NCBI GenBank assembly: GCA_026018925.1
Contig: JAKSZU010000029.1
Coordinates: forward strand, 14,683,778 to 14,747,777
Source: Tupaia tana
Lineage: Eukaryota > Chordata > Mammalia > Scandentia > Tupaiidae
DNA: 64,000 nt
Reading direction: 5' to 3'
Below are positions 18,270 through 62,634 of this stretch, piece after piece; position 1 is the first letter of the stretch, and the number at the start of each line of letters is the position of its first letter. The notes under the pieces are model-generated. The model did not search any database. It saw nothing but the letters and a program-made list of their open reading frames with translations, and was not told where the DNA came from. Position numbers and translations under genes: made by a program.

Positions 18270-18904
18270 GAATTTCCCACTTGTCCTTACCCCATAGGAT
18301 TGCCCCCAGCTCTTCAGCAGAACCCATTTCCATCTCCAGATCCTTGGCCTAAAGGACACTGAGGCAGGGCCTCCACGCCCCAGCTCCACCTTTAGTTGCC
18401 CAACTCCAGCGACCCACTCTGTCTGTCAGCAAGGTAGACCTTTTTTCCTCTTCTCTTCTTTCTTTTGTGAATTTCCTATTTATCCTTACACCATAGGACT
18501 ACCCTCAGCTCTTCAGCAGACCCATTTCCATCTCCATACCCCTGGCAAAATCGTGCACTGCACACTTTCTTTATTCTCTTTTATACTCTTTTATCTTCCG
18601 TATTATATTGTCATCTCCTACCAATTCTCCATGCACCATAAGGGGCTAGACAGATCTAGAATCACAATTTTCAAATACCCTGGTATTGTGATGTTTCCTA
18701 GGATTCTCCCTTTTACATAACCACTTGCAAAAAAGGAAAGATTGCTCTTCAGACTCCTGAATAGAAGACCCCTTCTCTGCAGACCACATTGCAAAACACA
18801 GAAGAAGAGAGACTTCGGCACACATCAGTCTACAAAAAAGGAAGCGCACTTGTTCCCAAAGAGACATTTTCCAAAAAGTTATCCAAAAGTGAATACCTCT
18901 CACC
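18270..18904 (+). repeat. L1 5'UTR with a 199-bp tandem monomer
   Basis: The block beginning gaatttcccacttgtcc at 18270 recurs diverged at 18469 (gaatttcctatttatcc), a 199-bp period. This is followed by a non-repeated leader homologous to 52,030-52,400 of the young L1. It contains aaaggacactgaggcaggg, related to aagggacactgagggaggg in the young L1 monomers. Confidence 0.7.
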
Positions 18905-19852: not shown

Positions 19853-20527
19853 TAAGAATGATCAGCCAGAAATATGGGGGAATGACAACCAAGACAAGGG
19901 TCAACTTAAAGGTAAGGACAGGTCTGGAAATATCTATAATAACATTAAGTGTTAATGGATTAAATTCTCCTATCAAGAGACACAGACTGGCTGAATAGAT
20001 AAATAACAACAACAAAGAATCCCTCTATTTGTTGTCTACAAGAAATGCATCTCATGGATAAAGACACACATAAACTAAAAGTGAAGTGTTGGAAAAAAGT
20101 ATTCCATGAAAATGGAAATCAAAAAACAAGCTGGAGTAACGATACTAATGTCTGACAAGATAAGCTTTAAAACAAAAACTGTTTGAGAGTCAAAGAATAT
20201 TATATTTCTATTATATTAATTATATTATATGATATTATATTTATTATATACTATAGTAAAAGGGTTAATCTATCAAGAAGATATAATGTTAATAAATGTC
20301 TATATACTTAACACAGGAACATCCAAATATGTGAAAGAAACACTGTTAGATCTAAAAGGAGAGATAGACTGCAACACACTAATTGTTGGAGACCTCAATG
20401 CCCCACTATCTCCTCTGGACAGATCATCTAGACAAAAAAAATAAATAAAGAGGCAAAGGATTTAAATGATACCATAAATCAAATGGACTTACAGACATCT
20501 ATAGAACTTTCCACCTAAAAACCACTA

Positions 20528-20827
20528 GATATAGTTTTCTTCTTCTTCTTTTTTTTTTTTGAGAGGTTTTTGCTACAGGGCATGTGCGCTCGCCAGACAG
20601 ACAGAGAGAGACAGAGAGATAGAAAGCGAGAAATCACCCCCCAGGGGGGATGGCCATGCCGCAATCCTTTCTCCTCCATTCTCCTCTCAGGATCTTGGGC
20701 ACGCATGCACACGCACCCGGCGTGAGTTTAAGACACCGGGTCTGGGATGTGAACCGTGGTCGACTACGTGGGAATCCAGCGACATAGCCATTACGCTAAC
20801 TGCTGGTCCCCGATATAGTTTTCTTCT
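20528..20827 (-). mobile_element. Long-form SINE inside L1 ORF2
   Basis: Minus copy with perfect 16-bp duplications gatatagttttcttct (20528-20543 and 20812-20827). Well preserved, so much younger than its host L1. Confidence 0.92.
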
Positions 20828-21664
20828 CACCCCCACATGGAACCTTTTGAAGATTAACCACATGATAGAGCATAAAGCAAGATTCTACAGATTTAAAGGC
20901 ATAGAAACTATATTCAGCATCTTCTCTGACCATGATGGAATTAAACTTGATTTTAATTTCATGAGAAATCCTCAAAAATACATGAAAATTAAACAGCCTA
21001 CTCCTGAATGACTATATAACTACTGAAGAAATTAAGACTGAAATAAAAACATTCATGGAGACTAATGACAATGAGGACACGAGTTTCTATAATCTTTAGG
21101 ACACTGCAAAAGCAGTTATAAGAGGGAAGTTTATACTTACTAGTGCACATAAGAAGAAGACAGAAAGAAGGCAAATAGATCATCTGACATTGTGCCTCAG
21201 AGAATTGGAAAAGCAACAGAAAAATAATTCCAAAAAAACTCCAGGAGAAAAGAAATAAAGATTCGAGCAGAAGTAGATGAAATAGAAAATAAGATAACTA
21301 TAGAGAAAATAAATGAAAGTGAAAGCTGGTTCTTTGAAAAAGCAAACAAGACTGACACACCACTAGTCAGACTAATTAAGAAGAGAGAAAGGGACCAGAT
21401 AATTCAAATTCACAATGAATCAGGAAACATTACAACAGACGTAACAGAAATACAAAACGTCATTAGAGGATACTATGAGCGAGTTTATGCCAACACAGAA
21501 GAAAACCTGGATGAGATGGACAAATTCTTGGACACATATAACCTACCAATATTGACTCAGGAATACATAGAAAGCCTGAATAGACCTATAACAATCAATG
21601 AGATTGAATCAGTAATAAATAACCTCCCAACAAAGAAAAATCCAGGCCCTGATGGCTTCACTTT

Positions 21665-21963
21665 CAAATTTTACATAACTTTTTTTTTTTTTTGAGAGGT
21701 TTTTCCTATAGGGCGTGTGCGCTCGCCAGACAGACAGAGAGAGACAGAGAGAGATAGAAAGCAGGAAATCACCCCCCAGGGGGGATGGCCACGCCGCAAT
21801 CCCTTCTCCTCCATTCTCCTCTCGGGATCTTGGGCACGCACGCACACGCGCCCGGCGTGAGTTTTAGCCTCCGGGTCCGGGACTCGAACCGCGGTCGACT
21901 ACGTGGGAGTCCAGCGACATAGCCATTACGCTAACTGCTGGTCCCAAATTTTACATAACTTTT
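21665..21963 (-). mobile_element. Long-form SINE, first of a same-site pair
   Basis: Minus copy between two copies of caaattttacataactttt (21665-21683 and 21945-21963). It carries intact head and body blocks, including the B-box region gactcgaaccgcgg (reverse). Confidence 0.95.
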
Positions 21964-22250
21964 TTCTTTTTTTCTTTTTTTGGAGAGGTTTTTGCTATAG
22001 GGCGCATGCGCTCGCCAGACAGACAGAGAGAGACAGAGAGACAGAAAGCAGGAAATCACCCCCCAGGGGGGATGGCCACGCCGCAATCCCTTCTCCTCCA
22101 TTCTCCTCTTGGGATCTTGGGCACGCACGCACACGCGCCCGGCGTGAGTTTAAGCCACTGGGTCCGGGACTCGAACCGCGGTCGACTACGTGGGAGTCCA
22201 GCGACATAGCCATTACGCTAACTGTTGGTCCCAAATTTTACATAACTTTT
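21945..22250 (-). mobile_element. Long-form SINE, second of a same-site pair
   Basis: Nearly identical to its neighbour at 21,684-21,944, same orientation, between the second and third copies of caaattttacataactttt (third at 22232-22250). Confidence 0.95.
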
Positions 22251-24667
22251 ATAGAAGAGGTAACCTCCATTCTACTCACACTGTTTCTAGAGATCCAAAA
22301 AAAGGAACCTTTCCAAATTCATTGTATGAGTCCTCCATAGTCATCATTTCCAAAACGGTTAAGGATACGACAGAAAAGGAAAACTACAGACCTACATCCC
22401 TGATGAATATAGATGCAAAAATGATCAACAAGAGACTTGCTAACCGTATTCAACAGCATATAAAAATGTTATTCATCACAACCAGGTAGGCTTTATTCCA
22501 GGGATGCAAAGGTGATTCAACATACGCAAAAGCATAAATATAATACATCATACTAACAGAAAGAAAGGTAAAAAGCATATGATTATTTCAATTGATGCAG
22601 CAAAAGCATTCAACCAAATACAACATGCTGCTATAATCAAGACTCAGTAAAATTAGCATAGAAGAATCATTCTCAGCATAATAAAAGCCAATTATGAAAA
22701 AACTACAGCTAACATTATCCTGAATAGGGAAAAGCTGAACGCTTTTCCACTAAAAACTGGGAAAAGGAAAGGCTGCCCACTTGCTCTGCTCTTATTTAAT
22801 ATAGTACTGGAAGTTCTAGTCAATGTGATCAGACAAGAGAAGAAAGTAAAAGGCATTCCAATAGGGAAAGAAGAGTTGAAATGATCTCTGTTACCAAATG
22901 ACGTGACTATATACATAGAAGACCCAATAGTATCCATGAAAAAAACTTCTCAAAGTAATAAATACATACAGTAAAGTGGTAGGATACAAAATTAACTAAT
23001 AAAAATCCATAGCATTTCTATATACAAACAACAAGCAGACAAAGACAGAACTAAAGAAAGTAATTTTGTTTACCATAGCCACAAGAGGCATAAGGTACTT
23101 AGAAATAAAACTAAGCAAGGATGTCAAAGACCTATACAAGAAAAATTACAAAAACCTTAAAAAGGAAATTGAAAAGGATACTAAAAAGTGGAAAGACATC
23201 CCATGTTCCTGAATGGGCAGAATCAATATAATCCAAATGTCAACTCTACCCAAAATAATCTACATGTTTAATGCAATCCCTATAAAATTACAAGAGATAT
23301 TTTTCACAGACCTAGAAAAGACAATCATAGATTTTATCTGGAACCATCAAAGACCCAGTTTTGCTAAAGCCATTCTGCACAAGAAGACAAGAGTAGGTGG
23401 CATTTCACTTCCTGATCCCAGAATATGTTACAAAACTGTGATAATCTAAAAAGCATGGCATTGGTACAAAAACAGACATTAGGACCAATGGAACAGAGTA
23501 GAGACTCCAGAAATAAGCCCAAAAACATACAACCAACTCATCTTTGACAAAGGGTACCAGTCAATCCAGTGAGAAAAGGGAAATCGCTTTAGCAAATTGT
23601 GTTGGAAAAACTTGGTATCCACCTGCAGAAAGATGAATCAGAACCCCTACCTGTCACCATTAACAAAAATCAACTCAAAGTAAATCAATGATCTAAACCT
23701 TAGACCGCAAACTATAAAACCATTGGTGGAAAACACTGGGAAACTGGGAGACATTGGCGTAGGCAAAGACTTCTTAAGTAAGACCCGCAAAGCACAGGCA
23801 ATAATTCCCAAAATAGACAGGTGGGATTACATCAGATTAAGTAATTTCTGCACAGCAAAGCACACCATAATTAGTGTGAATCAACAACACTAGAAATGGG
23901 AGAGAATTTTTATTAATTCTGCCTCAGATAAGGAACTAATAATCATAATACACAGGAAACTCAAGCAGCTTACCCAGAAAAGAAAATGATTAACTCAATT
24001 AAAATATGGGAAAAAAGCTGAATAAACAATTCTCTAAGAAAGACATAGCAACAGCCAAAAAGCATATGAGAATGCTCAACATCCCTTATTGTAAGGGAGA
24101 TGAAGATCAAAACCACAATGAGATACCACCTAACCCAGTCAGAATGGGAGAGATTAAAATAGCAAATAATGATAAGTACTGGAGAGGATGTGATGAAATG
24201 GGGAAACTCCTACACTGTTGGTGGGAATGTAAATTGATCCAGCCGATGTGGAGAATAATATGGAGGTTATTCAAAGACCTTCATATAGTACTACCATATG
24301 ATCCAGCAATTCAACTCCTGAGTATCTACCCAAAGAACAGGAGAGCACTCAGTCAGAAAACTGCTTGCAAAACTATTTACATCACAGCATTACTCATGAT
24401 TGCTAAGTCATGGGACCAACTCAGATGTCCTCAAAGAGATGAATGGATTGAAAAATTATGGTGCATGTATTCTATAGAATACTATTCAGTCATAAAAAAC
24501 AAGTCCCTGAATTTGATAGAAAGTGGACAAATATAAAAGATTTGTTGCTGAGATTCACTCAACTGGGCTGGACTGAGGTGTATATCATGCTGGATAAAGT
24601 CTATTCACAATCTAAATGACGTATAGTGTTTTAATGTATAAATAATAATTTAAAAAATTAATTAAAG

Positions 24668-27046
24668 AGTTTCTTCTCTGTGGTCACTGGGGAGAACCTG
24701 CTGCTGTGCTGACTGTGCTCTGCCAGACAATGTGTCCATGAAGCTATCATTTTAGAAACCTCTGTATTTGTCCAGGGTTAAGAAAATGAATCCCTGAAGA
24801 AGATCACTCATGGCTCCTGGAAAATAGTCATTTCAGGGTACAAGAGAAATGAAGATTTCTACTGAAAATTCAGCCTCCAGCAAACAAGCTAGCGTGATTG
24901 AACTTCAAGAATTAGGAAAAAACACACTACCCATCAGATGACTAGAAATCACCACAGGACCACAAGAAATATGGGAAAGCAAGGGAAAAGAATAACTCCT
25001 CTTAATCCACAAGCAGTTCAATGGAAATCATGGAAATTTCTGATACAGAATTTAGAACATTCATAATGGTGAAGCTAACAGAGATGGAAGAGAAAAGAGA
25101 CAATGAACCGCTGAAAAGAAAGGAGAAAGAAGTTGACGAGTTCCAGGAGGTGAGGAAATTCTTGCAAGATCTAAAAGAGGAATTACACACTTTAAAAAAG
25201 AATCAAAGGGACCTGTTAGAGATGAAGACTATAATACAGGAAGTCAAAATCTCCTTGAAAGTATTAAAAGCAGACTAGATCATACAGAAAATGGTATCTC
25301 AGACATAGAAGAGAAAATTGCTGGCCTAGAAAAATCCACCACAAAGACTGAGAAAATGGCCTAAAAATTTGAAAACAATATACGAGAAGTACTAGATACC
25401 ATCAAACGTCCAAACATCCAGATAACTGGCTTTCCAGAAGGCAAAGAGACCCATAAGGGCATTGATAATCTAGTCCATGAAATCCTGCAAGAAAATTTTC
25501 CAAACCTAGAGAGGCACTCAAAGATCCAGTCCCAAGAAATACAAAGGACCCCAAATAGAATCAACCCAAGAAGATCTTCTCCAAGACATATTTTAGCCAG
25601 ATTGACCAAAACCACAAAGACAAAATACTAAGATTGGCAAGAGAAAAACATCAGGTTACCTACAAAGGATATCCCATCAAGCTAACAGCAGATCTCTCTT
25701 TGGAAATAATGCAAGCGAGGAAAGAATAGGAAAATATATTCAAAGTGTTAAGAGAAAAGCAATTTCAGCCAAGAATACTGTACCCGACAAGACTATCTTT
25801 CATGTGGGAAGAAAAGACAAGAACATTCTCAGAAAAACAAAACCTGAAAGAATTTACCAGCACCAGACCAGATCTCCAAGAAGTTCTCAAGGGAGTGCTA
25901 TATTGGGAAATTTAAATACAGACATACAGAAAGAAAAGTTCAAAAACTAAGAGAGTGGTCAGCTTAATCATGGGGACAAGTCTGGAGTTGAATATTACAT
26001 CCCAGAATTTAATCAGGAAAATTGAACCACAACAGAAGATAAAGTACATGAGACTGAATTGGTGAAGTATAATTTTATGACTTTTGACTAAAATATTGCT
26101 GATTTTCTTGTAGACTTTGTTACCTGGTTGTAAGGATTTGTGTCCTGTCCTGAGATATGGATAGGTTCATGCACCTATCATTTGATCAGAATCCTAACCT
26201 GTTTCCTGGCTTTAAGCAAAGTTTCTTAGCATTTCTTTGATTTAAGTTAAAACTGGTTTTCTTAATAGTATCTAGTAAACTTGCTATTGAAAGTAGTTAG
26301 ATTATTTAAGAAATTGTGTTATCAATACAATGTGGATGGGAAAGGAATGGAAGACAATTGTCAACTCCAGAGATAGTGTGAGAAGAGGGTGGGAAAGGAC
26401 AGAGTGTCAGAAATAAGGGTAAAAAAAATTCTAGAAAATAGAAATGGAAAATTTGTGATAATCATATGCATGATTAAGCCACTATGCAGTATATTCTGGA
26501 TGGGAAATCACATATTGTATGTTGTAACAATGTTTAGGGAAAGAATGTAAATTAAGTTAAAAAAAAGTTTCAGAAAAAAAAATACCTATTCAATGCCTGC
26601 AGTATGATATATAGCCCCAGCTAGGTGCTACTTTATAGGATGTTCATTCTACTCATTAAGTCTTATGCCTAAAGTTGGACTTGTGTTCATAGAAATGTAT
26701 ATATCAGCTGTGTTTACTGTGAAAATATTTAGATTAATTAAGATCTATAGTGACTCAATAAAACGTGGGGGAAAACAGTATAGAAAGCAATCATAGATAC
26801 CAAAGACAGTGTGAAAGGAGAGTGGAAGATGGCAGAGGGTAAGAGATAGGGAATCAAGGACAAGTAATAAAAAGTAAAACATATAGGAAACAAGAAATGG
26901 AAAATTATTTGTTGATGATAACATGTATGCTGATGTGCTTGATTGAGCCAATGTACAGTGTACTCTGGATGGAAAATCTCATTTTGTATGTTGTAATGAT
27001 GTACAGTGAACGAATGTAAATAAATAAATTTTAAAAAACGTAAAAA
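24668..27046 (+). mobile_element. HAL1-like element: ORF1 only, two-module 3'UTR
   Basis: 5'UTR 24,668-24,971; a broken L1-type ORF1 at about 24,972-25,915 (EIMEISDTEFRTFIMVKLTE, then the RRM and C-terminal parts in shifted frames); no ORF2; then 3' module 1 (25,916-26,575), an A-rich linker and 3' module 2 (26,590-27,046). The same layout, with alignable modules, occurs on the minus strand at 32.2-34.9 kb. It is inserted in the A-tail of the L1, flanked by aaaattaattaaa repeats. Half-L1 (HAL1) elements are known in mammals; this looks like a local lineage. Confidence 0.8.
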
Positions 27047-27116
27047 AAAATTAATTAAAAATGAATATGACTAAAACGTGCTCACATTCACTATTCATAC
27101 ATTTAAAAAATTTATA

Positions 27117-32169: not shown

Positions 32170-34944
32170 ACTTTTTTCTTTTTCTTTTTTTTTTTCCTTC
32201 TTATTTTTTTTCTCTTTAAATTTATTTATTTTTTACATTAATTCACTATACATCATTACAGCATACAAATGAATTTTCCATCCAAAATACACTGTGTATT
32301 GGCTCAATCAAGCACATCAACATATGTTTTCAGCAAATAATTTTCCAATTCTTATGTCTTGTATATTTTGTTTTTTTTCTTTGGCCATCCTTGATTCCTT
32401 ATCCCTCACCCTCTGCCATGTCCCACCCTCCTCCCACATTGTCTCTGGTATCCATGGTTGCTCTCTATGCCTTCCCCCCCATTTAATTGATTTGCTAATG
32501 AACTTAATTAGTCTAAATATATCCAATAGGTAGCACAGCTGATATATACCTATACATGAACACAAGTCTGACTTTAGTCATAAACCCCAGTGAGTAGAAT
32601 GAACATATTATAAAGTAGTGCCCAGCTGGGGCTATATAGGTTACTACAGTCATCAAATATGCATTTTTTTTTTAAATTTCGATATGAACAGTTTTACTGT
32701 TTTTTTCTCCTACAACTTTTTTTTAAAAATTACTTAACATTCATTCCCTGAGCATCATCACAACATATTAAATGTGGTTTCCTATCTAGAATAAACTGGA
32801 TAGTGGCTTAATCATGTATGTTATCATCAATAATATTCCATTTCTACTTTCATACATATGTATATGTATATATATGTTTTTTACCCCATGTTTGACCCTC
32901 TGCCCTTTCCCACTCTCTTATTACACTAGCTCTGCTATATACAGTTGTCTTCCATTCCTTTTCCCCCAATATTTTGTTGATCACACAATATCATAAATAA
33001 TCTAACTACTTTCAATAGCAAGTTCAGCTGGTAATTTCAAGAAAAGCAGTTTTGAACTGGTAATGATATTTCCTTGAAACTTAAGGACTAGAAACAGGTT
33101 AGTATTCTGTTCAAATAGTAGGTACATGCACCTATCGACAGCTCAAGACAGGACAAAAATCCTTTAAAACCAACAACAAAGCTTAGAAGAAAAGCAGCAG
33201 TATTTTAGTCAAGTCACAGAATGTTGTTTCGTCAGTTCAGTCTCATGTACTTAATCTTTCTTCTGTTGTGGTTCGATCTTCCAGATTGAATTCTGGGATA
33301 TAATATTTATCTCCAAACATTGTCCCTACAATTAAGTTGCCGATTTTCTTAGTTTTTGAACTTTTATTTCTGTGTGTCTGCATTTAATTTTACTGACATA
33401 GCACTCCTTTAAGAACTTCTTGGAGATCTGTTCTGGTGCTGGTAAATTCTTTCAGGTTTTGTTTATCTGGGAAAGTTTGTGTCTTTTCTTCCCAAATGAA
33501 TGATAACCTTGCTGGGTACAGAATTCTCGGTTGAAATTCCTTTTCCCTTAATACTTTGAATATATTTTTTCATTCTCTCCTTGCTTGCATTGTTTTCGAT
33601 GAGAGGTCTGCCATTAGTCTGATGGGATACCCTTTGTAGGTAACTTGCCTTTTTTCTCTTGCCAGTCTTAGTATCTTGTCTTTGTCTGTGGTTTTGGTCA
33701 ATCTGGCTATAATGTGTCTTGGAGAAGATCTTCTTTTGGTTGATTCTATTTGGGGTCCTCTGTATTTCTTGGGACTGAATCTTTGAGTGCCTCTCCAGAT
33801 TTGGAAAGTTTTCTTGCAGGATTTCATGGAATAGATTATCAATGCCCTTATGAGTCTCTTCACCCTCTGGGATGCCTATTATCTGGATGTTTGGACGTTT
33901 AATTGTATCTAGTACTTCTCGCATATTATATTCAAATTTTTGGGACATTTTCTCAGTCATTGTGGTGGATTTTTCTAGGCCAGCCATTTTCTCTTCTACA
34001 TTAGAGATTCTATTTTCTGTATTTTCTAGTCTGCTTTTAATACTTTCAAGAGAGATTTTGACTTCTTGTATTATAGCCTTCATCTCTAACAGTTCCATCT
34101 GATTCTTTTGTAAAGTGTGAAATTCCTCTTTAAGATCTTGCATGAATTTCCTCACCTCCTGGAACTCTTCAACTCCTTTCTCCTTCCTCTTCAGCAGTTC
34201 CTTGTCTCTCTTCTCTTCCATCTCTGTTAGCTTTGCCATTATGAATGTTCTGAATTCTTTATCAGACATTTCCATGATTTCCATTGAACTGTGTGTGGAT
34301 GAAGAGGAGCTATCCGTTTCCCTTGTGGGAGAGGTATTTTCCTGCTTCCGCATATTTCTTGTGGTCCTGCAGTGATTTCTAGTCATATAGTGGATGGTCG
34401 GGTTCTTCCCAAACTTGGAAGTTCAATCTGAGGGTCGAGGAGTGTGCAGAAAAGGAAGCAGAGAGAGGGAAACAATATCAACAACAGCAAAAAACCAGAG
34501 AAGAAACAGAGAAAAAGAAGAGAAAAACTTTTAAATAAATCTAAAAAAGAAAAATTAATATTCAAAAAATTCAATAAAACTCAAAAATTAGAAAACCGCA
34601 CGGTGCGCAATGGCTAGATCGCAGGAGCCATGGAGCTGTCTGTCTTTTGAAGAAGGGCTGTTCTGGGAGGAGGAGAGGGGATTATTTTTAACAAGATAAA
34701 GGGCTAGCTAGGAGGGACCTGTGAAATGCCTCACCTTAAAAAATTCTAAAAAGCAAAAATTAAAAAAAAAAGACAGAGAAAGAGGACAGAGACAGAGGTA
34801 GAGAAAGGCAAAGACTGATGCAGAGACAGGAGACTTGAAGGGGGTCTTCCTGCCACGTGGGTTTTGTATGCTGGAGGCCCAGTGATCAGTGGGACATCTT
34901 CCTTTCTCCCAAAATGGCTAGATCGCAGGAGCCATGGAGCTGTC
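32170..34944 (-). mobile_element. HAL1-like element, minus strand, open ORF1
   Basis: Read on the minus strand: 5'UTR 34,944-34,387, ORF1 34,386-33,463, 3' module 1 (about 33,440-32,731), an A-rich linker (about 32,730-32,650), 3' module 2 (about 32,640-32,216) and an A tail (T-rich 32,215-32,170). There is no trace of ORF2. Both modules align with the copy at 24.7-27.0 kb, so this is a family structure rather than a chance deletion. It must depend on L1 ORF2p for mobility. Confidence 0.82.
33463..34386 (-). CDS. L1-type ORF1 protein of the HAL1-like element
   Basis: Open reading frame of 307 codons. A short Ser/Thr-rich head (EMIMSDKEF-type motif after it) leads to a long coiled coil (about residues 45-150, LTEMEEKRDKELLKRKEK and similar), then the RRM region (RPNIQIIGIPEGEETHKGID) and the C-terminal domain (QIQRTPNRIN-like block). 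The last part may be frame-shifted, because a second open frame at 33,863-33,570 carries the expected ILRLAREKRQVTYKGYPIRL stretch. The coiled coil and RRM are intact; the C-terminal domain is probably not. Confidence 0.7.
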   Translation of the reverse strand: MTRNHCRTTRNMRKQENTSPTRETDSSSSSTHSSMEIMEMSDKEFRTFIMAKLTEMEEKRDKELLKRKEKGVEEFQEVRKFMQDLKEEFHTLQKNQMELLEMKAIIQEVKISLESIKSRLENTENRISNVEEKMAGLEKSTTMTEKMSQKFEYNMREVLDTIKRPNIQIIGIPEGEETHKGIDNLFHEILQENFPNLERHSKIQSQEIQRTPNRINQKKIFSKTHYSQIDQNHRQRQDTKTGKRKKASYLQRVSHQTNGRPLIENNASKERMKKYIQSIKGKGISTENSVPSKVIIHLGRKDTNFPR

Positions 34945-35175
34945 TCAAAATGTGAACATTTCAATATGTGAACATTTCTCCCCAGTCCCGTTGATCCAAA
35001 TATCTTCAACCGATAACACCACACTTCCCCATCCCGTCAATGCTCTACCTCGGTATCCCTTCTCCAAATGTCCTTCGTTAGGCCCCACTCCTCCACATAC
35101 ACCTCATCTGACATTCACACCCATCTCTTGTGTTTGTACAACCGTTAGTCAATCAGCTTCAGTCATAGAGTGTAG
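34945..35175 (-). mobile_element. L1 3'UTR fragment abutting the HAL1-like 5' end
   Basis: Minus-strand match to the 3'UTR of the young L1 (57,250-57,470): starts at the ORF2 stop region (gaagctgattgactaac), passes gaggtgtatgtggaggagtg and ends at ggggagaaatgttcacatat. It has no A tail and runs straight into the HAL1-like 5'UTR. Confidence 0.85.
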
Positions 35176-48668: not shown

Positions 48669-49950
48669 ATATTAGACTAAGAAGTTTCTGCACAGCAAAG
48701 GTCACAGTAACAAATGTGAACCGACACCCTCAGAATGGGAAAATATTTTTGTTAAATATGCCTCAGACAAGGAACTGATAACCAGAATACACAGGGAACT
48801 CAAGTGCCTTATGCGAAAAAAAAAATGATTAACCCAATCAAAAGATGGGAAAATGAACTGAACAAAAATCTCTCTAAGGAAGACGTACAAACAGCCAAAA
48901 AGCATATGAGAAATGCTCAACATCCCTCATCATAAGGGAGATGCAGATAAAAACCACAATGAGATACCACATAACCCCTTTCAGAATGGCAAAGATTAAG
49001 AATATAAAAAGTGATAAGTGTTGGCAGGGATGTGGTGAAAAGGGAACCCTCCTACACTGTTGGTGGGAATGTAAACTGGTTCAACCACTGTGGAGAACAA
49101 TATGGAGGTTCCTCAAAGATCTACAAATAGAACTACCATTTGATCCATCAATCCCACTTCTGGGTATTGACCCGAAAGACAAGAGAATGTTCAGTCAGAA
49201 AAGTGCTTGCACATCAATGTTTATTGCAGCATTATTCACAATTGCTGAGACATGGAACCACCCTAAATGTCCACAAACTGATGAATGGATTGGAAAAGGG
49301 TGGTATATATATTCTATGGAATATTACTCAGCCATAAAAAATAACAAGACCCTGGCATTTGATAGAAAGTGGTCAGATATGGAGGATCTATTGCTGAGTG
49401 AAGTAAGCCAGGCTATGAAAGAAAGATATTGTATGTATTCACTCAATATATACCAACTATCTGCACTCTATGGTAGAGAGCAAAAAATTGGAGAATATAA
49501 AAGCAGTGAAGGTACTTAACAAGAATAGAACAGTGTGTAATGGGGGGGTGAAGAGAAGAGGATAGAGAAAGTTAGTAAGAGAACAAATAGAGAGGTAGGA
49601 CATTAGTGGGAAACAGATACAGCTTATTACCTGTTGATGATGACATGTATAGTATTCTCAACTGGATTGGTCTGAGAAGTATTTCATGATGGGTAAAGTA
49701 TTTTTACAAGCAAAATTATAAATAGTGATTGACTATTTTAAAAATTAATTAGAACAATAATAATAATGATTGGGAAAAACATAGAAAAGATATTGAATGA
49801 TGAAGTGGGGAGATTAATGTCTCTGTATTAACTGACATGCATGACATTCCCTTTTGAAATACAATGTAATACACTGTAAAAATATATCTAATCCAATGTA
49901 ATATAAAGAAGATTATGATGATAATAAAAATTAAAAAAAAATAGCTAAAT
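48669..49950 (+). mobile_element. 5'-truncated L1 3' end replacing provirus sequence
   Basis: Begins in the last third of ORF2 (ttagactaagaagtttctgc, matching 56,461 of the young L1) and keeps the cysteine motif [18 protein letters not shown] in an open stretch (48,941-49,519). It runs through a 3'UTR to an A-rich end. The provirus protease and RT, which should lie here, are missing, and I find no target duplication. Confidence 0.85.
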
Positions 49951-49959
49951 TTAAAAAAT

Positions 49960-50900
49960 GCACTTGTTTTTACTGACGGTTCTTCATCTGGGCATGCCGC
50001 CTATGTATTTGATAATCATACTACCTTTCTTCATTTCCCCCCCACCCCGCCTGCCTCAGCACAAATGGTGGAATTACAAGTGGTCATAACTGTATTTCAA
50101 CTCTTTCCTCAAACATCTTTCAATTTATATACTGACAGTCATTATATTTTTCAAGCTGCCCAGTCCCTTGAGACTGTTGCCTTTCTTGATCCTACATTAT
50201 CCACTATACAATATCTTCTTTCCAACCTACAACAATGTATTCAACAAAGAACTCTTCCTTGTTTCATTGGACATCTTCGAGCACACTCGAATTTGCCAGG
50301 TTCACTTTCCAGGGGCAATGCCCTGGCCGACAGGGGAACCCGCTTAATCGCACTCACTCGCTTACATAAGCTGAACAGGCTCATGCATTACATCATCAAA
50401 ATAGTATCAGTTCACGAAAACAATTTGGCATTTCTCGGGAAGCTGCTAGACAAATAGTTAAAAGCTGTTCTACCTGCCCAGAATTCCTTTCTGTTCCTCA
50501 TTATGGGTTAAACCCTTGAGGCCTTCTTCCAAATCATTTGTGGCAAATGGATGTTACTCATTATCCTAAATTTGGTAAACTAAAATATATTCATGTGTCA
50601 ATAGATACTTTCTCTGGATTTATTTTTGCTTCAGTTCATACTGGAGAAGCTACAAAGCATGTTGTGGCCCATTGCCTGGAGGCCTTCTCTGTTTTGGGAT
50701 TGCCTCATTGCATTAAAACTGATAATGGCAGTGGATATACGAGTAATAGTTTTGCCCGCTTCTGTGCACAATTTTGTATTTCCCACAAGACTGGCATTCT
50801 TTATAATTTCCAAGGTTAAGGTATTGTAGAAAGAGCTCATGGTACTTTAAAAGCTGCTTTACATAAAATTAAAAGGGGGAGTTGTATCCCCTGACACCAC
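49960..50900 (+). pseudogene. pol remnant: RNase H and integrase
   Basis: RNase H starts abruptly at its first active-site aspartate (FTDGSSSG) just after the L1 tail, with TDSHY further on. Integrase follows: part of the zinc-binding domain (CSTCPEF near 50,470), the core with MDVTH (first D), TDNGSGY (second D) and a VERAH glutamate after an in-frame stop. The three catalytic residues are recognisable, but stops near 50,458, 50,517 and 50,817 break the frame. Confidence 0.85.
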
Positions 50901-50933
50901 ATAATTATTTAAAACATGCCTTATTTGTACTTA

Positions 50934-51300
50934 ATGTATATATCAGCTGTGTTTGCTATGAAAATATTTAGATTAATTAAGATCTTTAGTAATTCAATAA
51001 AATGTGGGGAGAAAACAATATAGAAAGTAAACATAGATACCAGTGACAATGTGGGAAGAGAGTGGGAGATGGCACAGGGTAAGAGATAGGGAATCAAGGA
51101 TGGGGGGGAAGCAACACATACAGGAAACAAGAAATGGAAAATTATTTGTTGACAATAACATGTATGTTGATGTGCTTGATTGAGACACTATACAGTGTAC
51201 TCTGGATGGAAAATCTCATTTTGTATGCTGTAATGATGTACAGTGAATGAATGTAAATAAATAAATTTAAATTAAAAAAAGATTGTTCATCATGAAAAAA
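50934..51300 (+). mobile_element. HAL1-like 3' module 2, 5'-truncated
   Basis: Matches 26,690-27,046 and the reverse of 32,216-32,570: gtatatatcagctgtgtttg, gattaattaagatc, aatgtgggaagagagtggg, gtgtactctggatggaaaat and a taaataaa tail. Confidence 0.85.
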
Positions 51301-51376: not shown

Positions 51377-52025
51377 CGCTCCTGCAAGCCTCTGGCCGGC
51401 AAGGGACACTGAGGGAGGGTCACCTCTGACCCCCACCTCACTTCCAGACCCCCAGGCCCCAGACTCCACCTTCTAGACCATCCGGGACTGCCAGAAGGCA
51501 ATAGGCGCTCCTGCAAGCCTCTGGCCGGCAAGGGACACTGAGGGAGGGTCACCTCTGACCCCCACCTCACTTCCAGACCCCCAGGCCCCAGACTCCACCT
51601 TCTAGACCATCCGGGACTGCCAGAAGGCAATAGGCGCTCCTGCAAGCCTCTGGCCGGCAAGGGACACTGAGGGAGGGTCACCTCTGACCCCCACCTCACT
51701 TCCAGACCCCCAGGCCCCAGACTCCACCTTCTAGACCATCCGGGACTGCCAGAAGGCAATAGGCGCTCCTGCAAGCCTCTGGCCGGCAAGGGACACTGAG
51801 GGAGGGTCACCTCTGACCCCCACCTCACTTCCAGACCCCCAGGCCCCAGACTCCACGTTCTAGACCATCCGGGACTGCCAGAAGGCAATAGGCGCTCCTG
51901 CAAGCCTCTGGCCGGCAAGGGACACTGAGGGAGGGTCACCTCTGACCCCCACCTCACTTCCAGACCCCCAGGCCCCAGACTCCACCTTCTAGACCATCCG
52001 GGACTGCCAGAAGGCAATAGGCGCT
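51377..52025 (+). repeat. Five 129-bp tandem L1 5'UTR monomers
   Basis: Unit starts at 51,377, 51,506, 51,635, 51,764 and 51,893, with a partial sixth at 52,022. Copies are nearly identical (one c/g change, near 51,857). Each is GC-rich and contains GGGTCACCTCTGACCC, an inverted repeat of GGGTCA. Because 129 is a multiple of three, an artefact reading frame of 234 codons runs across the minus strand. Confidence 0.97.
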
Positions 52026-52402
52026 CCTGCAAGACTCTGGCGAAATCGCGCGGCGCGCGACTTTTTCTTTATTTTTCTGTGTTGTCTTTCCTTTAGTTGC
52101 ATATTGTCCTCTCCTCCTTATTTTTTAATGTGCCAGACAGACTAGACAGGTCCAGAATCATATATCTGAAATTTCCTAGGAAGGTAAGTGTCTCTGGGAT
52201 CCTCCCTAGTACTGATCCCCTTTGAAAAAGGAGATACTGCTTTTTAGACCCTTCTGTAGAGTTCCGCTCCTGAAAACACATTGGTAAAAACAACAGAAGA
52301 GAGACTTCAACAAACAGCTATTCCCATCAAAAAGGAAAGACTCTTACTTCTCGTGGGACAAAAGTTCTCCCAAGAGGTCTTTAAAAGGGAAGTAATCTTC
52401 CA

Positions 52403-53362
52403 ATGGCTAAAAGTAGAAAAAGAGCCCCAGGTCTGAATAAACAAGAAAATATGTCTCCAACAAAGGAAAATGCCCCTCCATGTCTCGTAAATATGGAGGA
52501 CGTTACCAAAATGGCAGACACAGAATTTCGAAAATTCATGGTGACCAAATTCTGTGAATTGGAAAAAAAAAGAGACAACGAACTACAGGAAATTAGGAAG
52601 TCCTTCCAGGATATGAAAGAAGAAATGGATACTCTGAGAAAGAATCAGGTGGAACTATTAGAGATAAAGTCTATAATACAAGAAATCAAAAACTCTCTGG
52701 AAAGTATTAAGAGCCGATTAGACCATGCTGAAGATCGAATCTCTGATGTAGAAGATAAAACCTCTGATCTAGAAAAAAACTACAAAAAGATCGAGAAAAT
52801 AACTAAAAAACATGAGGATAATATACGGGAAATACTAGACTCTATTAGACGCCCAAACATCAGAATAATCGGCATCCCAGAAGGTGAAGAAACTAATAGC
52901 GGAATGGAAAATCTATTCCATGACATCTTGGAAGAAAATTTCCCAAGCCTAGAGAGGCACCGAACCATCCGGACCCAAGAAATACAAAGGACCCCAAATA
53001 GAATCAACCCCAGAAGATCTTCCCCAAGGCACATCTTAGCCAGGCTGTCTAACGTCACAGAAAAAGACATGATACTAAAACTGGCAAGAGAGAAACGAGA
53101 AGTAACTTACAAAGGCCATCCCATAAGACTAACACCAGACCTCTCATCAGAAACAATGCAAGCAAGAAAAGAATGGGAAGACATACTGAAAGTGTTAAGA
53201 GAGAAACAATTTCAGCCAAGACTATTATACCCTGCAAGATTATCCTTCATTTGGGAAAAAAAGATTAAAATCTTCTCAGACAAACAAAACCTGAAAGAAT
53301 TTGCCAACACCAGACCAGCTCTTCAAGAAATCCTGAAGAAAGTACTGTTCCAGGAAAACTAA
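52403..53362 (+). CDS. L1 ORF1 protein, intact
   Basis: 319 residues. RNA-binding chaperone that coats L1 RNA. A basic, Lys/Arg-rich head (KSRKRAPGLNKQE), a coiled coil over about residues 45-150 (EFRKFMVTKFCELEKKRDNE, heptads through NYKKIEKITKKHEDN), the RRM region with RPNIRIIGIPEGEETN (about 155-240) and the C-terminal domain with ILKLAREKREVTYKGHPIRL (about 225-290). Complete, and about the length usual for mammalian L1 ORF1. Confidence 0.96.
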   Translation: MAKSRKRAPGLNKQENMSPTKENAPPCLVNMEDVTKMADTEFRKFMVTKFCELEKKRDNELQEIRKSFQDMKEEMDTLRKNQVELLEIKSIIQEIKNSLESIKSRLDHAEDRISDVEDKTSDLEKNYKKIEKITKKHEDNIREILDSIRRPNIRIIGIPEGEETNSGMENLFHDILEENFPSLERHRTIRTQEIQRTPNRINPRRSSPRHILARLSNVTEKDMILKLAREKREVTYKGHPIRLTPDLSSETMQARKEWEDILKVLREKQFQPRLLYPARLSFIWEKKIKIFSDKQNLKEFANTRPALQEILKKVLFQEN

Positions 53363-53406
53363 AGACGCAACAGCCAGAAACAAAGAAATAACAGGCAACT
53401 AAGACA

Positions 53407-56400
53407 ATGGCTAACTTAAATGTCGGTACAGATCCTGTAACATCGATAATAACATTGAATGTTAATGGGTTAAATTCTCCAATCAAGAGACACAGACTGG
53501 CTGAATGGATAAAAAAACAGAAACCCTCTATCTGTTGCCTACAAGAAACCCACCTCATGGAAAAAGACATACATAGACTGAAAGTGAAGGGTTGGAAAAA
53601 GGTTTTCCATGCAGTTGGGAACCAAAAAAGAGCTGGAGTTGCGATACTAATTTCTGACAAAATAGGCTTTAAAACAAAAAGTGTCCGAAGAGACAAAGAA
53701 GGGCACTACATCATAGTAAAAGGTTCTATAGATCGAGAAGATATAACGCTTATTAATATCTATGCTCCTAACACAGGAGCACCCAAATATGTGAAGGAAA
53801 GATTGTTAGATCTGAAAGGGGAGATAGACTGCAACACACTAATTGTTGGAGATCTCAACACTGCATTATCCCCTCTGGACAGATCATCTAGGCAAAAAAT
53901 AGGTAGAGAGATCAAGGATCTAAATGATACCATAAATCAATTGGACTTAACAGACATCTATAGAACTTTCCACCCAAAAACCACAAGATATAGTTTTTTC
54001 TCACCCCGACATGGAACTTTCTCGAAGATTGACCACATCATAGGACACAAAGCAAGCCTCTGCAGATTCAGAGGCATAGAAACTATTTCCAGCATCTTCT
54101 CTGACCATGATGGAATCAAACTCGAGTTTAATTTCAAGAGAAATCCTCAAAAATACCTAAAAACATGGAAACTAAATAACCTACTCCTGAATGACTCCAC
54201 TATTACCGAAGAAATAAAGTCCGAAATCAAAAGATTCATGGAAGCCAATGACAATGAAGATACAAGTTTCCATAATCTTTGGGACACTGCCAAAGCAGTC
54301 ATAAGAGGGAAGTTCATAGCAATTAGTGCACATAAGAGGAAGACAGAGAAAAGGCTAATGGATCACCTAACATCAAGCCTTAGAGAATTGGAAAAGCAAC
54401 AGCAAAAAAATCCAAAAAATTACAGGAGAAAGGAAATAATAAAGATCCGAGCAGAAATAAATGAAATAGAAAATAAACGTACTATACAGAAAGTAAGTGA
54501 AAGCAAAAGCTGGTTCTTTGAAAGGATAAACAAAATTGATACCCCACTAGCGAGACTTATTAAGAAGAAGAGAGAAAGGAACCAGGTGAATCAAATCTGC
54601 AATGAGGCTGGTAACATAACAACAGACATAGTAGAAATTCAAAACATCATTAGAGGATACTTTGAACATCTATACGCTAAGAAACAAGATAATCTGGATG
54701 AGATGGACAAATTCCTGGACAAATATAATCTACCAAGAATGAGCCAGGAAGAAATAGAGAGTCTAAATAGGCCCATAACAAGCCAGGAAATTGAATCAGT
54801 AATAAGTAACCTCCCAACAAAGAAAAGCCCTGGCCCCGATGGATTCACCTCTGAATTCTACAAAACTTTCAAAGAAGAGTTAACTCCCATTCTGCTCAAA
54901 TTATTTCTAAAGATCCAAAAGGGTGAATCTCTCCCTAATTCATTCTATGAAGCCTCTGTCACCCTCATCCTCAAAACAGATAAGGACAGGACAAGGAAGG
55001 AAAACTATAGACCAATATCTCTGATGAACATAGACTCAAAGATTCTCAACAAGATACTAGCAAATCGTATTCAACAACTTATACAGAAGATCATACACCA
55101 TGATCAGGTAGGCTTTATTCCAGGAATGCAAGGTTGGTTCAACATACGCAAAACCATAAACATAATACACCATATTAATAGGAAGAAAGACAAAAACCAT
55201 ATGGTCATATCGATTGACGCAGAAAAAGCATTTGATAAGATACAACATCCCTTCATGATCAAGACTCTTAGCAAAATTGGCATAGAAGGGCCATTTCTCA
55301 ATACAATAAAAGCCATCTATGAAAAACCCATAGCGAACATCATCCTGAATGGAGAAAAGCTGAAAGCTTTCCCACTAAACACAGGAACAAGACAAGGATG
55401 CCCACTTTCTCCTCTCCTTTTCAACATAGTTCTGGAAGTCCTCGCCAACGCAATCAGAAAAGAGGAAAAAATAAAGGGCATTCGAATAGGAAAAGAAGAG
55501 GTGAAACTCTCTCTATTTGCAGATGACATGATTGTATACATAGAAGACCCAATGGTCTCCATGGAAAAACTACTGGAAGTAATACATGATTACAGTAAAG
55601 TTGCAGGATATAAAATCAATATACAGAAATCAATAGCATTTCTGTATACGAATAACAGGCAGACTGAGATAGAACTGAAAAAACTTATTCCGTTTACCAT
55701 AGCCACTAAAAGTATAAGATATTTAGGAATAAATCTAACCAAAGAAGTTAAAGACCTCCACAAGGAAAACTATGAGAAGGTAAAAAAAGAAATTGAAAAT
55801 GACACAAAAAAATGGAAGGACATCCCATGTTCATGGATTGGAAGAGTTAATATAATCAAAATGGCAATTCTACCCAAATTAATCTACCTATTTAATGCAA
55901 TGCCAATCAAAGTACCAGACACATTCTTCACAGATCTAGAAAAGACAATCTTAAAATTTGTCTGGAATCATAAAAGACCCCGTATTGCCAAAGCACTTCT
56001 ACACAAGAAGAATGGAGTGGGTGGCATCTCAATCCCCGATCCAAAAATGTATTACAAAGCTGTGGTAATAAAGACAGCATGGTATTGGCACAGAAACAGA
56101 CATGTGGACCAATGGAACAGAATAGAGTCCCCAGAAATAAGTGCCCAAACATACAGTCAACTGATCTTTGACAAGGGGTACCAGTCAATCCAGTGGGAAA
56201 ATGAAAGCCTCTTCAGCAAGTGGTGCTGGAGAAACTGGACTTCCACTTGCAGAAAGATGAATCTGAACCCCTACCTCTCTCCTTTGACAAGAATCAAGTC
56301 AAGGTGGATCAAGGATCTAAATCTAAGACCTCAAACTATAAAGCTGCTCCTGGAGAATGCTGGGGAAACTCTGGGAGACATTGGTGTAGGGAAAGACTTC

Positions 56401-57264
56401 CTAAAGAAGACACTCAAAGCAGAGTCCATCGTCCACAAAATAGACAAGTGGGATTACATCAGACTAAGAAGTTTCTGCATGGCCAAAGACACAGTAGTTA
56501 GTGTGAATCGACAGCCCTCAGAATGGGAAAATATTTTTGTAAATGTTGCATCAGATAAGGGACTGATAACCAGAATACATAAGGAACTAAAAAAGGTGTT
56601 TGGAAAAAAGATGATCAACCCTATTAAAAGATGGGAGAAGGAGATGAAGAAAACACTCTCTAAAGATGACATACGAATGGCCAAAAGGCATATGAAAAAA
56701 TGTTCAACCTCCCTCATTGTAAGGGAAATGCAGATAAAAACAACAATGAGGTACCACCTAACCCCAGTCAGATTGTCTAATATTAAAAAAACAAAAAATG
56801 ATAAGTGTTGGCGGGGGTGTGGTGAAAGGGGAACTCTTTTACACTGCTGGTGGGAATGTAGATTGGTCCAACCACTGTGGAGAATAATTTGGAGATTCCT
56901 CAAAAATCTACAGATAGATCTGCCATATGATCCAGAGATCCCACTCCTCGGTATCTACCCAAAGGACAGAAGAATTCTTCATTGGAAAAGTGCTTGCACA
57001 TCGATGTTTATTGCGGCACTATTCACAATTGCTAAGTCTTGGAACCAACCCAGATGTCCCCGTATGGAGGAATGGATTGAAAAACTGTGGCTCATATACT
57101 CTATGGAATACTACTCAGCCATAAAAACCAACAGAGCCCTGGCTTTTGACAGAAAGTGGAAGAATATGGAAGATGTACTGCTGAGTGAGGCAAGCCAGAT
57201 TATGAAGGAGAGACATTGTATGTCCCCACTTAACATATACCGTTTGTCTGCTTTCTATGTCTGA
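53407..57264 (+). CDS. L1 ORF2 protein: endonuclease and reverse transcriptase, intact
   Basis: 1285 residues, normal for L1. N-terminal APE-like endonuclease with [28 protein letters not shown] and [10 protein letters not shown], the expected Asn, Glu, Asp/Asn and Asp/His catalytic positions. Reverse transcriptase in the middle: [38 protein letters not shown] (about residue 660) and the active-site FADDMIVY (about residue 704). C-terminal cysteine motif [18 protein letters not shown] (C-X3-C-X7-H-X4-C). It nicks DNA at T-rich sites and copies L1, SINE and cellular RNA at the nick. No stop or frameshift. Confidence 0.97.
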
Positions 57265-57541
57265 AACTGATTGACTAACAGTTGAACAAACACAAGAGAT
57301 GGGTGTGAATGTCAGATGAGGTGTATGTGGAGGAGTGGGGCCCAACGAAAGACATTTAGAGAAGGGATACAGAGGTAGAGCATTGACGGGATGGGGAGGT
57401 GTGGTGTTATCTGCTGAAGATATTTCAATCAACGGGTCTGGGGAGAAATGTTCACATATCAAAATGGTCTCATTGTAAGACAAACAATATGATTGAAAGT
57501 ATATACAAAAATAAATAAATAAATAAATAAATAAATAAAAA
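57265..57541 (+). other. L1 3'UTR and A-rich tail
   Basis: Short 3'UTR with gaggtgtatgtggaggagtg, ending in aaaataaataaat repeats and an A run. A piece of the same 3'UTR occurs on the minus strand at 34,945-35,175. Confidence 0.9.
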
Positions 57542-59565: not shown

Positions 59566-59777
59566 ATATCCACAGAGTTTGTTGCCTAAAGTCAACTTTT
59601 GTTCACAGATATGTATATATCAGCTGAACTTACTATTGAAAGTATTTAGATTAATTGAGATATTTTTTGAATCACTACAATGTGGGACAGAATAAAGGAA
59701 TAGAAAGCAACTGCAGATAACAGAGACAGGGTGGGAGAAGGATGAGAAATGGCAGAGGGTTAGAAATAGGGGGGAAA

Positions 59778-59870
59778 TATATATATGTATGTATATGTGT
59801 GTGTGTGTGTATATATATACATATATATATATATGTATATATATATACATACATACATACACACACAAGA
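59778..59870. repeat. (TA/TG)n microsatellite
   Basis: Mixed TA, TG and TACA repeats inside the HAL1 module. Confidence 0.95.
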
Positions 59871-60013
59871 AACAAGAAATGGAAAATTATTTGTTGACAA
59901 TAATGAAACTGAGCAAGGGCCCTCTAATGTATTTTCTAAGGTTCTTGAAATATAAGATCCCATTACATTGTAATGGTTCAGAGTAAGAAGTAAGTCTTCA
60001 GACTTTTGGTTAT

Positions 60014-61747
60014 AATAATGACCAACATGGGCCCGCCGAGCCTGCGTGGCCCGCCGGGCCTGCGCGGCTGGGGCTCTGCCTCACATGCCGTGGCCCGGAC
60101 CGCCCAGCCCCTGCTGCCGCTCCAGCACTGGGTGTGTCCCGCGCACTTAGTGCAGACGGGCCGAGCTCGCCGACCTTCCTTTCTTGGGGCGGGTGGGCGA
60201 GCGGGAGGTGGCGCTGGATCCCGTGAACATTCGTGCGCTCAGGGCTGGCGTGTGACCACCGGGCCTGTGCGTGGCCGCCGGGCCTGCGTGTGGCTGCTGG
60301 GCCTGTGCCTGCGCATGGCTGCTGGGCCCAAGCGTGGTTGCAGGGCCAGTATGTGACCACTGGGCCTGCGCGTGGCCGCTGGGCCTGCACCTGCACATGG
60401 CTGCTGGGCCCGAGCTTGGTTGCCTGGCCAGTGCGTGGCCACCAGGCCTGCGCGTGGCCCCCAGGCCTGCACGTGGCCTCCAGGCCTGTGCGTGGCCACC
60501 AGGCCTGTGCATGGCCGCTGGGCCTGTGCCTGCGCATGGCCGCCGGGCCAGCGTGTGACCGCCGGACCTGCGCTGGCGCATGGCCACGGGTCCTGCGCGT
60601 GGTTGCCGGGCCTGCGCATGGTCACCGGCCCAGTGCATGACCACCAGGCCTGCACGCGACCCCCGGGCCTGTGCGTGGCAGCCGGGCCTGCACGTGGATG
60701 CTGGACCTGCGCCGGCGCGTGGCCCCTGGGCCTGCACGTGGACGTCGGGCCTTAGTGGGGCCGCCGGGCCTGCGCGTGGCCACCGGGCCTGCGCCTGCAC
60801 TTGATGGTTGGGCCTGCACGTGGCCGCCGGGCCTGGGCCTGCGCGTGGCCGCCAGCCGCAGGCAGCAAATTGAATCCTAAAACTAGGACTAAGAACTTGC
60901 AACCACAAGCAACAGAAAGAAACTTTAGCTGTCTTAAACCAATTGAGAAATATATTGTATAGGAGGATTTTCTCCGCCTATGGACAGTGAGAAGATGATG
61001 GTCACCAGCCCTGCATTACCTCAGGGAAAAACAAGAACTACTCTACCATTCTTAAGGAAGCCAGATACCCGAGGATGACTCACGCTGCAGATCCCCGCAA
61101 CACCATTCCCGGTAATCACAAGATGGATGCTGTGCCGCATCAACTGATAATCATCTCTGCTTTCCAGAACCGCTTTCCTGAAACTGTCTTCCATGGAGAT
61201 TCACCTACAATTGCGGAACTGCACGAGACCCACCCTTAATCCAACCCTGAATAGAATCTATGCTCCCTGTTGTTAAAAACTATATGAGCTGATAATTGGG
61301 AAAAAAAAAAACTGAAAGAACTGGAGGGTATAATAACAGGGAAGGCAACTGCGGATGCTAGAGACAATATGGGAAAGGTAATGGGAACGAGTAATTGAGG
61401 GCAGAAGGGAGGGATTCAGGGAACAAACAACACACTCAATAGACACAAAAATGAAAAGTTGTCTGTTGATGATAATGTATATGGTAATATCATTGTCTTG
61501 ACTAATGTGCATTGTATTCATGCTGGGAAAAACCATGTTGTACACGGTAAAGAGGTGCAATGATTAAATGTAATAATTAAAAAAAATAATTGAAATCTGG
61601 GGGAAAAAAAAAAAATATATATATACTGACTGACATGCATGGCATTCCCTTTTGAAAAAGCAATGTAATACCCTGTAAAGTTATATGTAATCCAATGTAA
61701 TATAAAGAAGATTATGATGATAATAAAAAAAATAATGACCAACATGG
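60014..61747 (+). mobile_element. SVA-like composite retrotransposon with VNTR
   Basis: Element 60,031-61,730 flanked by a perfect 17-bp duplication, aataatgaccaacatgg (60,014-60,030 and 61,731-61,747). Parts: GC-rich head (60,031-60,240), a 19/25-bp VNTR (60,241-60,850), a unique body of unknown origin (60,851-61,300) closed by an A11 run, an L1-type tail module (61,311-61,600) closed by an A12 run, and an L1 3'-end module (about 61,625-61,720) with a final A tail. No coding capacity that I believe. The architecture recalls hominoid SVA elements, but no part matches them. Confidence 0.82.
60241..60850 (+). repeat. GC-rich VNTR, 19/25-bp unit
   Basis: Units such as gggcctgcgcgtggccgcc (19 bp), some with an inserted 6-bp step giving 25 bp. 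About 30 units, variable at CpG positions. Long open frames on both strands here come from the absence of A/T-rich stops and are not genes. Confidence 0.93.
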
Positions 61748-61925
61748 ACCATAAGTGAGGGCCATTGGACCTCTAAAACTCTCACTTAAAGGAAAGATAA
61801 AGTTTTGATTTCAATGTGTAAGATGTTTTATAGGCTGGAAACTGCTGGTTGTGAGCTCAAAGACTCTAGACTGAGTGGTTCTAGACATCTGAAGAGAAAT
61901 TTGATTATCTAAGGCCTCACCAATC

Positions 61926-62233
61926 AAGAATGCCCATGAGGGAACCAGCAGTTAGTGTAATGGCTATGTTGCTGGACTCCCACATAGTTGACCGCGGTTC
62001 ACGTACTGGACCCGGTGGATTAAAACTCACGCCGGGCATGTGTGTGTGTGTGTGTGCCCAAGATCCTGAGAGGAGAATGGAGGAGAAGGGATTGCAGCAT
62101 GTCCATCCCCCCGGGGGGGGTGATTTCTCGCTTTCTGTCTCTATGTCTCTCTGTCTGTCTGTCTGTCTGTCTGGCAAGCCCATGTGCCCTATAGTGAAAA
62201 CCTCTCCAAAAAAAAAAAAGAATGCCCATGAGA
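61926..62233 (+). mobile_element. Long-form SINE inside the solo LTR
   Basis: Body 61,941-62,218, flanked by aagaatgcccatgag (61,926-61,940 and 62,219-62,233). Well preserved, with a (TCTG)n-like stretch. Confidence 0.92.
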
Positions 62234-62634
62234 TAATCACACCCTCTGGAACCAATTACTGAACTGATCATGCACCTAGGACCTCTGCCCCTAATTTTCC
62301 CCTTAAAAACTCATGTGAGGAACATCTCGGGGAGGCAGGGTCTTTTCAGCATGAGCTGCCAACTCTCCTTGATCTGTGCTTAGCAATAAACTGTACTTTC
62401 CTTTATCACACCATGTGCCTATGGTTTGGTTTTATAACGCTTGGGTGAGCAAACCTGATTTGATTTCAGTAACAATAACGTGTATGATGAAGCCACTTTA
62501 AAGTGTATTCTGGCTAGAAAATCAAATCTGGCATGCTGTGAAATGTGATGTTTGGTGATGTGCAGTGAAAGTATGTAAATTAATTAATAAAAAAATAATT
62601 TTTGTAAAATAAAATCCTCATCAAGTTAAAAAAA

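Follow-up and report, generated by a model that had tools for sequence, protein, structure and literature searches.

VNTR composite retrotransposons (SVA, LAVA, PVA and FVA) are called hominoid-specific in the available parts of two reports (PMC4432496; PMC7353768). As described in the same parts of PMC4432496, the 3' domain of LAVA contains an L1 fragment, and the ancestral repeat units of the SVA group have lengths of 40 bp (A) and 39 bp (B). A second class of related insertions is found in a catalogue of human L1 chimeras, where, as far as the accessible portion of the article goes, fusions of foreign RNA with L1 occur together with duplications and A tails, and recombination between RNAs and retroelements is said to be able to yield new composite elements (PMC13174262).

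The DNA analysed here is a single stretch of 64 kb, referred to below as the window, and carries near its end a 1.7-kb element (Table 1). Like SVA, LAVA, PVA and FVA, this element is a non-coding composite with a GC-rich 5' domain, a central VNTR, an A tail and a target duplication, and its 3' domain is borrowed from another repeat, as is the L1 fragment of LAVA. The likeness would include the mode of action only if the element was one RNA. The element differs from the SVA group in its units of 19 and 25 bp (about 40 bp in the SVA group), in a 3' domain that corresponds to an L1/HAL1 terminus of the host, and in the host, which is not an ape. Neither a CT-hexamer array nor an Alu-like domain was found in the element by a tandem-repeat scan and an Rfam search up to E 5; the latter gave no SRP/7SL match in the element, and mir-493 and Twister-sister scored far below gathering scores.

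The non-ape host presumed by the first-pass annotation was borne out by a V2R-type frame (737-1795, minus strand). Proteins of Tupaia chinensis at 76-90% were the main best matches of this frame among the best 120 of 5,299 relatives (7,984 candidates scored); in the same 120, an opossum protein (61%) ranked first, and identities of rabbit and armadillo proteins went up to 76%. Frames resembling pieces of V2R vomeronasal receptors were seen at 737-1798, 15191-15871 and 17598-17942, all on the minus strand. In addition, a SINE is present in 35 places of the 64 kb (7,010 bases), which by our reading is probably tRNA-derived and non-Alu. No tRNA was detected in the window by ARAGORN or by Rfam at gathering scores. 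Tree shrew genomes consist to 21% of tRNA-derived Tu-SINEs, according to the part of PMC4408798 that was available. On this evidence, the host is probably a tree shrew (Scandentia). Only the layout would place the element in the hominoid SVA/LAVA/PVA/FVA group, with a GC-rich 5' domain, a VNTR and, like LAVA, a fragment of L1 in the 3' domain. With units of 19/25 bp against ancestral ones of 39/40 bp, with no match to the SRP family, and with a host marked by the V2R matches and the SINE, ape SVA membership was ruled out as a candidate and is regarded as exceedingly improbable. A thin literature search retrieved no comparable element in tree shrews.

The L1 chimeric insertions formed by template switch, 5' transduction or trans-splicing, as characterized in the consulted portion of PMC13174262, are also similar, since foreign 5' sequence in sense orientation is joined to L1 and accompanied by a duplication and an A tail. 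Unlike these insertions, the element has only about 0.4 kb of L1-type sequence, and its foreign part includes a VNTR.

Table 1. Coordinates of the element, its parts, the enclosing repeats and the full-length L1 in the window.
Feature	Position	Strand	Basis or properties
Full-length L1	51377..57541	+	13-bp duplication, open ORF1 (319 aa), ORF2 (1285 aa from first ATG)
HAL1-type 3' terminus holding nested insertions	59570..59900	+	profile positions 35-240 and 247-298
Putative solo LTR-like sequence holding element and SINE	59904..62474	+	TG...CA, 4-bp flanking ATAA, AATAAA at 62385
5' target-site duplication copy AATAATGACCAACATGG	60014..60030	+	direct repeat, random-pair control
Two VNTR-like 18/19-bp units at the extreme 5' end	60031..60068	+	insertion begins within VNTR-type sequence
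GC-rich unique head	60069..60243	+	70% GC, CpG o/e 0.79
VNTR, partial unit then 29 units from 60261	60244..60853	+	one register, 75% GC, CpG o/e 0.66
Unique body	60854..61300	+	447 bp, 45% GC, CpG o/e 0.46
A11 run, junction of body and L1/HAL1-type 3' end	61301..61311	+	A-run listing
L1/HAL1-type 3' terminus I, 5'-truncated	61312..61603	+	matches the profile over 61322-61580 (E 4.9e-17)
A12 run plus a short TA tract separating the termini	61604..61621	+	right border by eye
L1 3' terminus II, AATAAA at 61722, A tail	61622..61730	+	matches L1 3' ends in window
3' target-site duplication copy	61731..61747	+	direct repeat
HAL1-type 3' terminus, continuation	62474-62588	+	profile positions 304-407

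Boundaries and surroundings of the insertion

Target-site duplications left by L1-type target-primed reverse transcription measure about 7-20 bp and lie flush with the inserted element. The element (60031-61730) is bracketed by a perfect 17-bp direct repeat (17/17 identical), and when 2,000 pairs of 70-bp stretches were drawn at random from the window at the same spacing, one pair shared at least 17 bp. Its 3' A tail is an A8 run (61725-61732), whose last two bases are also the first two of the duplication; the other runs of at least six A's in the element lie at 61301-61311, 61579-61586 and 61604-61615. The perfect target duplications and the A tail around a 1.7-kb unit, both reported in the first-pass annotation, are therefore present. 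The nick-site context TTAT/AATAAT is a loose form of TT/AAAA, which the available part of PMC13174262 gives as the consensus site of the L1 endonuclease. From 5' to 3', the element consists of two VNTR-like units, the head, the VNTR, the body, the A11 run, terminus I, the A12/TA tract, terminus II and the A tail.

The element lies in a HAL1-type 3' terminus that was split by insertions. This terminus was followed by a profile through 59570-59777 and 59849-59900 (to profile position 298), and the match resumes at 62474-62588 from position 304. The profile was built from five termini of the window, four from two HAL1-type copies and one at 50860-51280; the name HAL1 is applied to copies that we take to be of the half-L1 type. 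The sequence between the two parts of the split terminus is, by our reading, probably a solo LTR, and no relative of it was found in the window. A SINE (61940-62222) is nested in this LTR-like sequence like the element, and is flanked by its own direct repeat AAGAATGCCCATGAG at 61926-61940 and 62218-62232. The duplication, the A tail, the nested position, and the order and orientation of the parts can be read directly at the locus. Because the element is nested in the LTR-like sequence within the split HAL1-type 3' end and has a target duplication, it is, on sequence grounds, a discrete L1-type insertion.

From the duplication and the tail, the first-pass annotation had concluded that the unit moved as one RNA. 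This conclusion was overstated, because a second insertion into the A tail of a first one leaves an identical outer duplication. In such a case, a truncated L1 3' end would have inserted at a later time into the A tail of a GC-rich retrocopy that ended in the A11 run at 61301-61311, and the outer duplication would have survived; A tails are common targets of L1. Neither AATAAA nor ATTAAA precedes A11 and no inner duplication was recognisable (one of pure A's would be invisible), which argues against two nested insertions, and this course of events is considered improbable.

Head, VNTR and body in relation to L1 and HAL1

Between 60261 and 60853, the VNTR contains 22 units of 19 bp and seven of 25 bp in a single register, with the unit consensus GGGCCTGCGCGTGGCCGCC and a mean identity to consensus of 82% for the 19-bp and 86% for the 25-bp units. 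The 25-bp unit resembles the 19-bp unit with six added bases, and combinations of the two lengths add up to the spacings of 44, 63 and 82 bp. All 14 matches of the VNTR pattern in the window fall within the element (0.00 expected). The CpG o/e of the entire window is 0.26, compared with 0.79 in the head and 0.66 in the VNTR. The annotated composite layout was thus confirmed: the head is GC-rich (70%), the VNTR has 29 units of 19 or 25 bp, and the unique body, given as approximately 450 bp in the annotation, measures 447 bp.

Searches of the remaining window with nhmmer gave no match for the head (E up to 10) or the VNTR (E up to 1), and nothing better than E 3.2 for the body. In coarse Smith-Waterman comparisons with two shuffles each, slight excesses on the minus strand were obtained for the head (45 vs 41 and 43), the left body half (39 vs 32 and 36) and the right body half (42 vs 35 and 31), none of which was counted as significant; the other five comparisons scored at or under at least one of their two shuffles. 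For the 276-aa antisense frame of the VNTR, no protein was found at E up to 10 (7,988 candidates scored). The patterns of the body and the VNTR had no match in a collection of viral contigs, and that of the body had none in a collection of genome contigs, both of which hardly contain mammals. In the latter collection, with hardly any mammals, the VNTR pattern gave two single matches on bacterial contigs, which were taken as chance.

The possibility that the body is a piece of an LTR, like SINE-R in SVA, was rejected after 18 comparisons with the surrounding LTR-like sequence, in which the observed score was equalled or exceeded by between 31 and 197 of 200 dinucleotide-shuffled sequences. These comparisons were made with LTR borders at 59894 and 62466, about ten bases from the final reading of the LTR.

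The comparison with L1 was made against the full-length copy in the window. At the DNA level, the scores of the body against its 5'UTR, ORF1 and remaining part on both strands were within those of 30 shuffles. At the protein level, four local alignments with scores of 39-43 were obtained without a control, and no ORF1 or ORF2 remnant was recognised in the body. In agreement with the annotated composite layout, none of the L1 and HAL1 copies within the window was significantly matched by the 5' two thirds of the element. Head, VNTR and body are thus probably not derived from L1 or HAL1.

The first-pass annotation already named a deleted L1/HAL1 copy with a VNTR as its 5'UTR as the alternative. 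In the form considered here, the VNTR and the body would represent the 5'UTR of an L1 or HAL1 lineage of the host, and ORF1/ORF2 would have been lost before the 3'UTR by internal deletion or splicing. This alternative stays alive and is somewhat strengthened by the full-length L1, which has a GC-rich tandem 5'UTR, although of different sequence. In this 5'UTR, a 129-bp unit is repeated 5.2 times (51377-52041, 99% matches), and approximately 360 bp of unique sequence follow before ORF1, a layout as in the VNTR and body. Further points in its favour are the non-autonomous HAL1-type copies occurring in the window, a direct repeat of 33 bp, with its two copies spaced 304 bp apart, which is located upstream of one HAL1-type ORF1, and the marginal similarity of the end of the body to one HAL1 terminus, described in the next section. 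It is opposed by the lack of significant similarity of head, VNTR and body to the L1 or HAL1 5' regions in the window, by the lack of a recognised ORF1/ORF2 remnant, and by the unique head between VNTR-like units, which was not seen in the L1 of the window. A deleted L1 or HAL1 is the main rival of the explanation placed first below, although a rather doubtful one.

An older L1 copy (18542-24552) matches the full-length L1 from just inside the last, partial 129-bp unit onward. The 33-bp repeat is perfect (34609-34641 and 34913-34945, minus strand), and the segment 34609-34945 adjoins a copy of an L1 3'UTR which is 90% identical to that of the full-length L1.

The A11 junction and the L1/HAL1-type 3' end

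Within the 60 nt before A11, AATAGA at 61250, starting 51 nt upstream, was the sole match among 12 poly(A)-signal hexamers, and AATAAA and ATTAAA are absent. Because only AATAGA precedes A11, one transcript ending at the L1 terminus is favoured. The same region bears on a one-off chimera, which could have arisen by a template switch of the reverse transcriptase onto an unrelated GC-rich RNA during insertion of a 5'-truncated L1/HAL1 3' end, or when a fusion transcript was copied once. The A11 run at the junction fits a jump onto a poly(A) tail, and the available part of PMC13174262 documents chimeras in which L1 and another RNA share one orientation and which have duplications and A tails. The missing AATAAA or ATTAAA in the 60 nt before A11 is the one observation in the window that speaks against this origin, which predicts a single copy and is regarded as unlikely.

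The annotated L1-type 3' end was upheld, as one of L1/HAL1 type, by the profile match of terminus I (E 4.9e-17) and by the 92-93% identity of module 2 to two L1 3' ends, and the L1/HAL1 nature of this 3' third of the element is directly visible. Module 1 (61309-61595) was most similar to copy A at 10261-10543, with 71% identity by BLASTN and 67% in a multiple alignment, in which it showed 60% identity to the HAL1-type termini. Module 2 was identical to L1 3' end D (49831-49930, which follows an L1 ORF2 end) in 94 of 101 positions (93%), to E (9219-9300) in 71 of 77 (92%), and to F (3913-3804) in 43 of 51 (84%; 83% by BLASTN). Since D and E agree in 88% over the region of module 1, where the element reaches only 50-51% identity to them, the 3' end of the element, judged by these alignments, is a mosaic and not simply that of D and E. 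In the copies at 49426-49937 and 8895-9309, where the last 100 bp are 92-93% and the preceding 250 bp 50-51% identical to the element, it looks as if L1 3' termini had been exchanged as modules.

Upstream of 61309, the local alignment with D extends to 61251, that with C to 61247 and that with B to 61271. No L1 similarity is claimed for this part, as in comparisons of seven L1/HAL1 3' regions with 61200-61311 the score was reached by 6 (B), 73, 78, 98, 116, 187 and 194 of 200 single-letter shuffles. The similarity to HAL1 terminus B (6/200) is marginal, and the profile match begins only at 61322; a weak L1/HAL1 ancestry of the end of the body is possible.

The two HAL1-type copies of the window, 24896-27061 on the plus and 34428-32191 on the minus strand, are 79.8% identical over 2,264 alignment columns and match L1 across ORF1 and not across the ORF2 body. 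Each ends in two tandem 3' termini with off-diagonal matches of 67-69%; the profile agrees with this, having been seeded by these same termini. The element is like HAL1 in that terminus I fits the profile derived mostly from these two copies, in which tandem termini and A runs occur as well, and unlike HAL1 in that no ORF1 was recognised in it and its 5' part had no significant match to them. Two L1-type 3' modules with A runs between them are present in the element as annotated. As a sign of special assembly they were discarded, and the two-termini layout is usual in this host, because both HAL1-type copies end in the same way.

Proposed origin and mobilising machinery

The explanation placed first is a non-autonomous composite RNA, made of the head, the VNTR, a body that is not L1/HAL1 and a truncated L1/HAL1 3' end, which would have been inserted in trans by L1. 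It is given about an even chance. In this model, the CpG-rich head, the 19/25-bp VNTR and the unique body were fused upstream of a 5'-truncated L1/HAL1 3' end, and the GC-rich 5' part would drive transcription. A single RNA would extend from the GC-rich end into terminus II, whose poly(A) signal, AATAAA at 61722, may supply the poly(A) end, and L1 proteins of the host would copy this RNA in trans by target-primed reverse transcription. Against the composite RNA stand the absence of a second copy within the 64-kb window, the A11 run at 61301, which could be an old A tail and would then mean two insertions, and the L1 copies with terminus II (49831 and 9219), which are 5'-truncated here and whose 5'UTR could be this VNTR.

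A further step would be a VNTR composite family of the tree shrew lineage, independent of ape SVA, in which a non-Alu CpG-rich head and the 19/25-bp VNTR were placed on a host L1/HAL1 terminus and amplified by L1 in trans. Such a family is proposed tentatively, as a possibility short of probable. If it is real, it would represent a second origin of VNTR composites, in close relatives of primates, set against their description as hominoid-specific in the parts of PMC4432496 that were available. It could then be asked whether L1 selects for a GC-rich 5' domain, for a VNTR or for nothing more than a good poly(A) end, and the family would show how the 3' ends of L1/HAL1 can turn into the tails of new non-autonomous elements. 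As a single chimera, the element would add one more case to the known L1 chimeras, and as an L1 5'UTR it would be a new L1 promoter of VNTR type, a modest gain in either case.

The full-length L1 at 51377-57541, whose 3'UTR differs from the 3' end of the element, is a candidate for a recently active copy by its sequence, and could provide machinery of the type needed to mobilise the element. Of 287 relatives of its ORF1, 120 were listed; the highest identity in this list was 71%, for a fragment covering 56%, and the best-ranked relative (68%) came from a contig labelled Streptomyces narbonensis. This L1 ORF1-like protein (P0001) is located on a contig of 2,304 bases filed under that species, apparently a mammalian contamination of the bacterial assembly.
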